In this document: positions 32,346 through 34,841 of the stretch, piece after piece | Layout of the letters: every line of letters starts with the position of its first letter | Numbering within the stretch: the stretch's first letter is position 1 | The notes under the pieces: generated by a model | What the model was told of the DNA's origin: nothing | Database searches by the model: none | What the model saw: the letters and a program-made list of their open reading frames with translations, nothing else | DNA from: Candidatus Parendomicrobium reticulitermitis | Lineage (GTDB): Bacteria > Elusimicrobiota > Endomicrobiia > Endomicrobiales > Endomicrobiaceae | Reading direction: 5' to 3' | Assembly (NCBI GenBank): GCA_031287095.1 | Contig: JAITTG010000027.1 | Span: forward strand, 1 to 38,616 | Length of the DNA: 38,616 bases | Program-made: the position numbers and the translations under genes

Positions 32346-32596
32346 ACAGCAAGGCAAAATAATCCACAGTCTTCTCGCAAGTTGCCGCTGCCGCTCAATA
32401 AATAAAGAGTGAGAGTCTGGCGGCGGGCGCGAGATGTGAGCGCCATTTTCTTGTCCGCTTCGTCTCCATCCCCTCACTCGTGAAGGGGAATTAACTGCCG
32501 CTTTGCATTATGGGCAAATAATCATTCGCCTGCGCAAACGAATGACAGAATATATCAGTTATGCAAAAGATTTAATATAGGCTTTAAAAAAACATA
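32346..32596. other. intergenic region right of lysE
   Basis: The region contains a TGGCGGCGGGCGCGAGATG repeat copy (32372-32452), a GGGCAAATAATCATTCGCC hairpin-like unit near 32512, and a segment ATATATCAGTTATGCAAAAGAT (about 32552-32573) resembling the right end of the MITE at 34446-34650. No gene is seen. Confidence 0.6.
32372..32452 (+). repeat. TGGCGGCGGGCGCGAGATG repeat, right of lysE
   Basis: The same family as 20343-20429. With 31624-31706 it brackets lysE in inverted orientation. Confidence 0.8.
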
Positions 32597-32642
32597 AAAA
32601 GTCAATACTTTTGAAAGCGCGCTTTAAAAAGTGTTGACTTTT
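32597..32642. promoter_or_regulatory. 46-bp near-perfect palindrome
   Basis: The arms AAAAGTCAATACTTTT and AAAAGTGTTGACTTTT surround AAAGCGCGCTTT, so 21 of 23 position pairs match. The right arm includes the -35 hexamer of the promoter for the DUF4143 ATPase gene. It may be an operator or a cruciform; no protein partner is known. Confidence 0.7.
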
Positions 32643-32662
32643 GTTTTATGATATTTTATAAC
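32634..32662 (+). promoter_or_regulatory. promoter of the DUF4143 ATPase gene
   Basis: TTGACT (32634-32639), 17-bp spacer, TATAAC (32657-32662), about 35 bp upstream of the ATG. The -35 element lies in the right arm of the palindrome. Confidence 0.6.
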
Positions 32663-32696
32663 TTATTTAATGAAACGCTGATTTTAGGAGAATACT

Positions 32697-33938
32697 ATGA
32701 ATAAAAATAAATATGTAATCAGGCAAGAGTATTTAAACGCTCTCATTTCTTTCAAGGATAAAGATTTAATCAAAGCAATTACCGGCATTCGCCGCTGCGG
32801 TAAGTCCACATTGTTGTTTGAAATATATAAGGATTGGCTAATATCTAACGGCGTTGGAAAAGACAGAATTATTTCAGTTGATTTAGAATCAATAGATAAT
32901 AAGGATTTATACAATTACGAAAGTTTGTATAAATATATTTCAAGCAAAATGATTAAAGGAAAAATGAATTATATTTTTATAGACGAAGTTCAAAATTGTC
33001 AAGATTTTCAAAAAGCCGTTGATAGTTTATACATTAAAAATAATACCGACATTTATATTACAGGTTCAAATGCGGCAATGTTTTCTGGAGAACTTGCAAC
33101 TTTGCTTTCAGGCAGATATATTACCGTAGAAATGCTGCCTTTTTCATTTAAAGAGTATATTGAGGTTTGCGGCAATGGCAATGATTTAGAAAAGAAATAT
33201 AGAGACTATGTCCGCTATGGTTCGTTCCCATATATCATGGAATTTGACAATAATGAAAAACAGATAAATACCTATCTTGAAGGCGCGTATAATACCGTTT
33301 TAAAAAAAGATATTATAGCCCGTCGTAAAATTACGGACATTTCTATGCTTGAAGATACTATAAAGTTCATCTTTGATAATATCGGAAACATAGTTTCTCC
33401 TAAAAAAATCAGCGATACTTTAACTTCGCATAACAGAAAAATATCTCATCCTACAATAGAAAATTATCTATCTTATTTAACGGATAGTTATATGGCGTAT
33501 AAGGTCGGCAGATATGATATAAAAGGAAAAGAATACCTGAAATCTTTATCAAAATACTATTGCGTTGATATGGGTTTAAGAAATTATCTTTTGGGATATA
33601 GAGATATAGATATGGGGCATATTTTAGAAAATATTGTTTATCTTGAACTTTTACGCAAAGGATATAAAGTTTTTGTAGGTAAAATAGATAGCGCTGAAAT
33701 TGATTTTATAGCTCAAAATCAAAACGATACTATATATATTCAAGTAGCCGAAACTATTAAAGGCGGAAAAGATATTTTAAACAGAGAACTTGCCCCGCTA
33801 AAAGCGGTAAAAGATTTCAATCAAAGATTGTTGATAACAACAGATTATGACGCCAATGTTTCTTACTACGGTATAAAACATTTTAACGCTTATGAATGGC
33901 TGTTAGGAATTGAAACCAAAAACACATTAAAAAATTAA
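32697..33938 (+). CDS. AAA ATPase with DUF4143 domain
   Basis: The 413-residue product has Walker A GIRRCGKST (30-38), Walker B IFIDE (93-97), and sensor-like YITGSNAAMFSGELATLLSGRY. The C-terminal DUF4143 region (about 200-413) includes VYLELLRKGYKVFVGKIDSAEIDFIAQ, a PD-(D/E)XK-like stretch with EIDFIA at its core. Such ATPases are common, horizontally moving genes of unknown role in gut bacteria. AGGAG lies seven bases before ATG. It is followed by a HipB-like antitoxin, but no functional link is known. Confidence 0.9.
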   Translation: MNKNKYVIRQEYLNALISFKDKDLIKAITGIRRCGKSTLLFEIYKDWLISNGVGKDRIISVDLESIDNKDLYNYESLYKYISSKMIKGKMNYIFIDEVQNCQDFQKAVDSLYIKNNTDIYITGSNAAMFSGELATLLSGRYITVEMLPFSFKEYIEVCGNGNDLEKKYRDYVRYGSFPYIMEFDNNEKQINTYLEGAYNTVLKKDIIARRKITDISMLEDTIKFIFDNIGNIVSPKKISDTLTSHNRKISHPTIENYLSYLTDSYMAYKVGRYDIKGKEYLKSLSKYYCVDMGLRNYLLGYRDIDMGHILENIVYLELLRKGYKVFVGKIDSAEIDFIAQNQNDTIYIQVAETIKGGKDILNRELAPLKAVKDFNQRLLITTDYDANVSYYGIKHFNAYEWLLGIETKNTLKN

Positions 33939-34096: not shown

Positions 34097-34411
34097 ATGA
34101 GTCAAAGAATTCACTTGCCATTACCCGCTATGAGCGCTTTGCGGAAATTGGGACAAGATATAAATGAGGCGCGCCGCCGCCGCCGTATTCCTATGGCTTT
34201 GATGGCTCAACGGGCTGGTATTACAGAAGTCACTTTGATAAAAATTGAAAAAGGAAATCCCAATACCGCTATGGCGGGATATGCTTCGGTTTTATTTGTT
34301 TTGGGTTTAATAGATAAATTAAAAGAGATTGCAGATATTGCTAATGACAAAACGGGACAAATCTTTGAAGCCCAAAATCTCCCAAAACGGATTAGAATTA
34401 GCAAGGAATAA
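34097..34411 (+). CDS. HipB-like XRE-family antitoxin
   Basis: The 104-residue DNA-binding protein has a helix-turn-helix LGQDINEARRRRRIPMALMAQRAGITEVTLIKIEKGNP (about residues 16-52). It matches antitoxins that precede HipA-type kinases. It would bind the two upstream TTAAATATAGTA repeats and repress its own operon. AAGGAG precedes ATG. The partner toxin gene downstream (34416) is broken, so the antitoxin is now unpaired. Confidence 0.82.
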   Translation: MSQRIHLPLPAMSALRKLGQDINEARRRRRIPMALMAQRAGITEVTLIKIEKGNPNTAMAGYASVLFVLGLIDKLKEIADIANDKTGQIFEAQNLPKRIRISKE

Positions 34412-34415
34412 TATT

Positions 34416-34841
34416 ATGAGCAATAAATCAATTTTTGTTTCAATAGACCTCTTGCGCAACCGATATATAAAATAAATGGACATTACGCGCCTCCGTCATT
34501 CCCGAGCGTCTTTGTCGGGAATCCACTTGCCGTTGTTTTTTAACTTGGATTTCCGATAACAACTTTCGGAAATGACGCATTGTGGGCGATTTTTGGCAAT
34601 GACAATAGATACATTCTTACATTCTTTATATATCAGTTATGCAAGAGGTCTATTAAACAATAAAACAATTCTTGTTGGCAGATTGCGGACTAATATCAGA
34701 AACGGCAAAGAAAACGCGGCAAGTTTTTGGCGTCAAAGCGCCAAACAATTAAAAATTTCAAATCAAGAAATAGATTATATGAGATCAGCCTTTGACAACA
34801 AACAAACAGAATTTGCAAAAAAATTAAAAAATGTTCGTTAA
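34416..34841 (+). pseudogene. HipA-type kinase toxin, deleted and MITE-interrupted
   Basis: The gene begins with ATG 34416 (AAGGA eight bases upstream) as MSNKSIFVSI, the start of a HipA N-terminal domain. It is then cut by the 205-bp MITE and resumes with LNNKTILVGRLRTNIRNGKENAASF. It then jumps to the C-terminal helices WRQSAKQLKISNQEIDYMRSAFDNK. The kinase core of about 300 residues is missing. Removing the MITE and one TA copy restores the reading frame between the two N-terminal pieces. The toxin is certainly non-functional. Confidence 0.8.
34446..34650. mobile_element. 205-bp MITE in the hipA remnant
   Basis: The terminal inverted repeats GACCTCTTGCGCAACCGATA and its near complement ending GCAAGAGGTC are flanked by TA on both sides (34444-34445 and 34651-34652), as expected for a TA target duplication. 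There is no transposase. It carries two hairpin elements in inverted orientation (34493-34523 and 34547-34577). The TA target fits IS630/Tc-type or some IS5-type transposases in trans. Partial ends of the same family are at 5697 and about 32552. Confidence 0.82.

Follow-up and report, generated by a model that had tools for sequence, protein, structure and literature searches.

A palindrome at the promoter of an AAA_14-DUF4143 ATPase gene, probably an operator read by the ATPase itself

The window, which is the whole stretch of 38,616 nucleotides analysed from Candidatus Parendomicrobium reticulitermitis, carries a gene for a 413-residue ATPase preceded by promoter boxes and a large palindrome (Table 1). 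A small XRE/HipB-like protein is encoded at 34097-34411, and its TIGR03070 match is weak and below the cut-off of that model. No partner toxin was recognised for this protein, and the ORF beside it (34572-34841) has no Pfam or NCBIfam family match. Six neighbouring proteins were scanned with Pfam and no recombinase family was found among them, two of the six being without any Pfam match.

Table 1. Features of the ATPase gene and its upstream region in the window
Feature	Position	Strand	Basis
Extended self-complementary region, 77%	32572..32670	.	Matches its own reverse complement, E 8.5e-14
46-bp near-perfect palindrome, putative operator with the -35 box mirrored in its flanks	32597..32642	.	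Arm pairing and shuffles
26-bp operator core ACTTTTGAAAGCGCGCTTTAAAAAGT	32607..32632	.	Palindromic weight matrix score 20.4 (18.2 when held out); single copy in genome
Putative specificity base, operator position 16, A, left half-site	32614	+	Covariation with residue 252
Putative specificity base, operator position 16, A on the - strand, right half-site	32625	-	Covariation with residue 252
-35 box TTGACT	32634..32639	+	Read from sequence; start at dyad +14, the most frequent offset in the family
-10 box TATAAC	32657..32662	+	Read from sequence; spacer of 17 to the -35 box
Likely ribosome binding site AGGAG	32686..32690	+	Read from sequence
AAA_14-wHTH-DUF4143 ATPase gene, 413 aa	32697..33938	+	Pfam AAA_14 and DUF4143; PADLOC PDC-S01 match; AF2
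Predicted winged helix-turn-helix domain, residues 212-292	33330..33572	+	AF2 models
Predicted recognition helix, residues 251-263	33447..33485	+	AF2 models and covariation
Codon of residue 252 (Pro)	33450-33452	+	Recognition helix, covariation
C-terminal domain (part of DUF4143 and beyond), PD-(D/E)XK-like, motif E311, D336, Q349	33612..33896	+	Motif, AF2, available part of PMC12988326

The two arms of the palindrome (32597-32619 and 32620-32642, 23 nucleotides each) pair at 21 of 23 positions (91%) with no loop between them, which confirms the near-perfect 46-bp palindrome with two mismatched pairs described in the original prediction. It had also been considered that a palindrome of this size is rare by chance, and this proved right: it is the only centre with at least 21 of 23 pairs in the 38.6-kb window, and 200 dinucleotide shuffles of the window gave none. 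The 26-bp core is the counterpart of the family consensus AGTTTTTnnATTA-TAATnnAAAAACT and is a divergent version of it, with C for G at position 10 and a G/T mismatch at position 15. The possibility of further copies scattered over the genome had been raised as well; no second copy of the core with up to three mismatches was found in the 2.16-Mb genome, which is a draft (125 contigs, 90% complete) whose missing part could hold one. The 16-bp sub-palindrome is not enriched genome-wide over a reversed control pattern (89+101 vs 136+119), and the palindrome region has only one other BLAST match in the genome, of 31 bp (87%), at C66, where it overlaps the 3' end of an ORF. The reading as a dispersed repeat was thus rejected for this draft genome.

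As the original prediction stated, the -35 box lies inside the palindrome, in the right arm, and is mirrored in the other one by AGTCAA at 32599-32604. The mirror-strand box is probably a by-product of the symmetry, since the six bases mirroring TATAAC do not resemble a -10 box and a leftward transcript would oppose lysE. The dyad of the operator lies near -50.

The ATPase matches the Pfam profiles AAA_14 (2e-34) and DUF4143 (6.4e-23). Among its 206 aligned homologues, the Walker A lysine (K36) is present in all and the Walker B pair D96-E97 in 204, and the window protein has both. In the AF2 model (pLDDT 90.6) an AAA+ part is followed by a winged helix-turn-helix and then by a C-terminal alpha/beta domain, and a separate AF2 model of residues 200-292 (pLDDT 80.3) agrees on the winged helix-turn-helix. 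In both models this domain is formed by helices 215-227, 235-244 and 251-263 and a two-strand wing. The best PADLOC model for the protein is PDLC04787 (PDC-S01; E 4e-152, residues 3-404), and five further homologues tested match PDC-S01 as well.

Inverted repeats of their own are frequent upstream of the 41 homologous genes found in 40 stretches of the same family. For a wider comparison, the best palindrome score within 160 bp upstream was taken at 80 loci from many phyla, two of 85 homologue genes being dropped because of their short upstream regions. A score of at least 8 was reached by 68 of 83 homologue genes, compared with 106/355 for the upstream regions that served as controls at these loci (Mann-Whitney p 8e-21), and a score of at least 12 by 28/83 and 14/355, respectively, in a comparison where the homologue upstream regions are more AT-rich than the controls (30.5 vs 35.8% GC). 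Because of this AT-richness, shuffles and AT-rich controls were added when a palindromic weight matrix was tested. This matrix was trained on 125 upstream regions (83 from the 80 loci, 41 from the family stretches and one from the window), some rows being duplicated (L104 and L137 are one gene), and converged on aaatTnaAaAGTTTTTnnAtTa followed by its reverse complement. In five-fold held-out scoring, 49/125 homologue upstream regions reached at least 16, compared with 1/355 controls and 0/625 dinucleotide shuffles; the lone control is also among the 201 AT-rich controls.

Furthermore, the motif is linked to the gene. With the model trained on all rows, 48 of the 55 sites scoring at least 16 in 1.16 Mb of flanking sequence lie just upstream of an ATPase gene, and a 49th site (L139) lies upstream of an ATPase gene that had earlier been dropped for its short upstream region. 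Operators at this threshold occur under ten phylum labels (Bacillota, Mycoplasmatota, Synergistota, Spirochaetota, Elusimicrobiota, Bacteroidota, Melainabacteria, Fibrobacterota, Pseudomonadota and Verrucomicrobiota) and in one record labelled Saccharibacteria; the labels come mostly from metagenome bins, rest on one locus in six of the ten cases and may be wrong in single assignments. The palindrome of the window is a diverged member of this promoter operator, which travels with the ATPase gene. The gene itself seems to be horizontally mobile, as hinted by its 59% identity to a homologue in an Izemoplasmatales bin and 55% to one in an Endomicrobium bin.

Outside the training rows, an operator scoring at least 12 was found in 15/22 genes at 45% identity or more, 4/9 at 40-45%, 7/34 at 35-40% and 1/25 below that, and in 5/355 controls. 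Of these 90 genes, at least seven (L124, L134, L078, L055, L146, L089 and L090) belong to training loci and differ in the choice of start. The operator motif therefore marks a clade, and beyond about 40% identity most genes have other operators or none.

Some upstream regions show variants of the arrangement. The close homologue L107 has a perfect 66-bp palindrome (33/33 pairs) from -107 to -42 upstream of the gene. By eye, L097, L098 and L100 present a tandem pair of 16-bp inner palindromes (TGTCAN...TTGACA type) at a distance of 40 bp, the second of which contains a -35-like box. The inner 16-mers of the window palindrome are 30 bp apart.

The position of the operator relative to the promoter was examined in the homologue genes with an operator score of at least 10, which are 99 of the 173 at 35% identity or more to the window protein (206 homologues in all). 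The -35 box was allowed to start 10 to 17 bases from the dyad, and 93 of the 99 operators had room to be scored. In 72/93 cases the operator is followed by a sigma70-like promoter matching the consensus in at least 9 of 12 letters, vs 35/387 shifted windows, with operator learning and selection drawn from the same family and start codons assigned by rule. In 63 of these 72 promoters the -35 box starts at dyad +12 or +14, 58 have a spacer of 17, and 49/93 operators are followed by a promoter with at least 10 of 12 letters, mostly with a spacer of 17. Since the promoter follows the operator at a fixed phase, this is a promoter-associated DNA element, which precedes the transcript wherever the conserved layout holds.

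This bears on the idea that the inverted repeat could act as a 5' leader RNA hairpin or terminator, or as a cruciform element. Some palindromes of more distant clades are near enough to the start codon to be transcribed, and an inverted repeat is what such a structure needs. In the window, on the other hand, the palindrome lies upstream of the predicted transcription start with the -35 box inside its right arm, and a hairpin does not predict the covariation between bases and residues described below, so this explanation is very improbable.

Covariation between protein and operator was measured in the 99 genes with operators scoring at least 10, comparing 395 protein columns with 18 operator positions by mutual information with average-product correction. 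The top pair is residue 252, the second residue of the recognition helix, with operator position 16 (z 19.3), followed by 252 with position 17 (z 9.3) and 250 with position 17 (z 8.0), all others being at 6.04 or below. When the register was set by symmetry alone (57 genes), residue 252 and position 16 were again the top pair (z 7.8, next 5.3). By half-sites, asparagine at residue 252 goes with T (36/38), lysine with G (36/40), histidine with G (20/20), arginine with G (11/16), aspartate with C (8/8), proline with A (15/16), leucine with A (10/14) and alanine with A (7/10). Glutamate is poorly predictive (C in 7/14 half-sites), and the bases paired with glutamine (A 3, T 3, C 2) follow no rule. 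The clear pairings are contacts expected from general protein-DNA chemistry. The window fits this table, with proline at residue 252 and A in both half-sites.

When homologues more than 70% identical were left out, residue 252 predicted 144/178 half-site bases (baseline 54), and with a cut at 55% identity it predicted 126/160 (baseline 46); the next best residue predicted 52% of half-site bases. A rule by chemical class, written after the residue-base table was known, was right in 157/184 half-sites, compared with a mean of 52 and a maximum of 86 in 2000 permutations. Moreover, when protein pairs of like overall identity are compared, those with the same residue 252 have the base in common much more frequently; at 50-60% identity, for example, the frequency is 0.85 if residue 252 is the same vs 0.21 if it is not. 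In 30 test genes, which may overlap partly with the training loci as in the 90-gene set, 42/56 half-sites were predicted correctly (baseline 18).

Shared ancestry was considered with a tree built without residues 240-262, on which residue 252 changes 38 times. Tree-corrected independent pairs for K/R/H with G went in the expected direction in a mean of 7.9 of 9 with none opposite (p 0.008), or in 5.7 of 9 when both half-sites were demanded (p 0.03). For hydrophobic residues with A, with both half-sites demanded, the values were 5.0 of 8 in the expected direction and 0.5 opposite (p 0.125). The pairs for N with T (2) and D/E with C (3) were too few after tree correction and were not significant. 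Taken over the related operators, the recognition base appears to track one amino acid of each protein.

Regarding these data, the ATPase most likely reads its own operator and so would control its own promoter, in either direction. The suggestion in the original prediction that the palindrome is an operator controlling the ATPase is strongly supported by the linkage of motif and gene and by the residue-base covariation. From the computed results, which are a family-wide operator, its link to the gene, its phase to the promoter and the covariation, we infer that the protein dimerises, binds the DNA, represses the gene and is controlled by ATP. As a dimer, the ATPase would bind the palindrome through its winged-helix domains with one recognition helix per half-site; the two position-16 bases of the window operator are 11 bp apart, which is one helical turn. 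Residue 252 would read position 16, and residue 250 would probably help in the reading of position 17. By occupying the DNA immediately before the -35 box of a good sigma70 promoter and the box itself, the dimer would most likely repress transcription, and the ATPase cycle could couple the release of the operator to a signal.

The ATPase could instead bind the operator and activate its own promoter, contacting sigma region 4 from a site near -50, which would be a sub-case of the same autoregulation. The core operator abuts the -35 box and leaves the -10 box uncovered, and its dyad is placed where an activator could also sit. However, an activator would not be needed at the many promoters near consensus, and the 46-bp form covers the -35 box. 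Activation is accordingly an unlikely variant, and repression is the more likely direction, given the number of near-consensus promoters and the way the site reaches the -35 box.

A different question is whether another protein reads the operator. Many bacterial genes have operators bound by regulators that are encoded elsewhere, and a host regulator other than the ATPase could bind this one too. Nevertheless, the motif is linked to the ATPase gene under ten phylum labels and the operator base varies with residue 252 of the ATPase itself. A conserved neighbour is also absent: among ORFs within 6 kb at 79 loci, the only families present in more than four loci were the same or related ATPases and ABC-type proteins, among the best 26 entries. 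Another host regulator is therefore improbable. The neighbouring XRE protein, which had been put forward as a possible binder, was rejected as an unlikely reader for want of a conserved association, since at the other 78 loci examined none of the ORFs up to 6 kb from the gene gave a blastp match to it. The alternatives of a cruciform or a recombination site, also offered in the original prediction, find no support in an element with a single genome copy, a conserved promoter phase and residue-base covariation. A recombination, transposon-end or integration site is the least probable of all, as the large palindrome and the seemingly mobile gene are outweighed by the single copy, the promoter phase and the absence of a recombinase among the six scanned neighbours (two without a Pfam match).

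Autoregulation by the ATPase can be compared with known systems. Fur, PadR and MepR/MarR-type winged-helix repressors are autoregulatory, and they likewise have dimer-type palindromic operators at their own promoters. Fur, PadR and MepR/MarR repressors are the nearest Foldseek folds to the winged helix-turn-helix domain alone, with weak matches (best E 0.0066). In contrast to them, the window protein has this domain between an ATPase and a nuclease-like domain in a protein of 413 residues. For residues 1-300 the nearest solved folds are the archaeal Walker ATPases 2qen and 2fna (VIA-align Z 17.4 and 17.1). NLR and CED-4 chains follow with Z 14-16, a likeness in AAA+ and winged-helix fold to STAND proteins (NB-ARC, CED-4) that is drawn from structure alone. 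The winged helix of STAND proteins belongs to the nucleotide switch, whereas that of the window ATPase seems to read DNA bases.

PDC-S01 was described in 2026 as the fourth most common defence across prokaryotes, with 29,494 counts in bacteria and 9,986 in archaea, and validation is pending for most such candidates, according to the available part of PMC12988326. In rumen genomes it is the most frequent individual locus (available part of PMC13356809). Like the window protein, PDC-S01 is an ATPase fused to a PD-(D/E)XK-type domain in the accessible text of PMC12988326; unlike here, the available parts of both accounts (PMC12988326, PMC13356809) name no operator or DNA-binding role. A literature search, with preprints and most subscription journals outside its scope, found no report of an operator or of DNA binding for the DUF4143/AAA_14/COG1373/PDC-S01 family and, among sources some of which were available in part, no printed mechanism for PDC-S01.

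Compared with the published PDC-S01 description, the catalytic lysine of PD-(D/E)XK nucleases is replaced in the window protein and its clade. Among the 146 proteins at least 38% identical to the window protein, 144 have A, S, T or C at position 351 (the other 2 being gaps); lysine was found there in none of 48 proteins at 30-38% identity and in 4 of 12 below 30%. Since this motif lysine is replaced, nuclease activity of the clade is doubtful. E311, D336 and Q349 are kept in spite of the lost lysine, which suggests that residues 311-351 may have retained a non-catalytic or altered role.

A very common and unexplained gene suspected of phage defence thus appears to encode a self-regulating DNA-binding protein. 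The conserved operator and the one-residue recognition code would make a directly testable DNA-binding system for PDC-S01: the code would predict part of the DNA target of a protein from its sequence, the promoter would report induction, and the circuit prompts a search for the releasing signal. More tentatively, and as a conjecture with some chance of being right, PDC-S01 proteins could be self-addressed DNA-binding ATPases, where each copy has a private operator with a matching recognition residue and several copies in a genome need not cross-talk. A response would be triggered once the operator is vacated, for instance by a phage that degrades, titrates or takes over the host DNA. In this clade the nuclease-like domain would probably be a dead scaffold, so that the ATPase and the induction of its gene would bring about the effect.

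Paralogues in the same genome were considered with respect to such private addresses. In the 11 genomes or records with at least two scored operators, 12 of 13 within-genome pairs differ in residues 252/250, and since 93% of all pairs differ anyway, this is no evidence for private addresses: it fits non-overlapping addresses without supporting them. Three DUF4143 paralogues in the genome of the window (L278, L277 and L279) have large promoter palindromes of their own (60 bp, 64 bp and 33 bp, respectively), with unrelated sequences.

The residue-base code was not extended to the whole DUF4143 family, as the far clades have a weaker enrichment and different palindromes or none. A palindrome score of at least 8 was found for 21/41 far DUF4143 genes vs 21/108 other ORFs of the same loci and 106/355 of the earlier controls, the 108 ORFs being unfiltered for real genes and the P-loop pattern that chose the 41 losing some genes. 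By eye, six of the far loci (L287, L314, L289, L290, L297 and L295) seem to share another type of palindrome, approximately CG(G/T/A)CTAATATAA...TTATATTAGNCG. Relative to the start codon it is placed at about -99 to -12, where it may cover the -10 region, and it perhaps represents a second operator clade.
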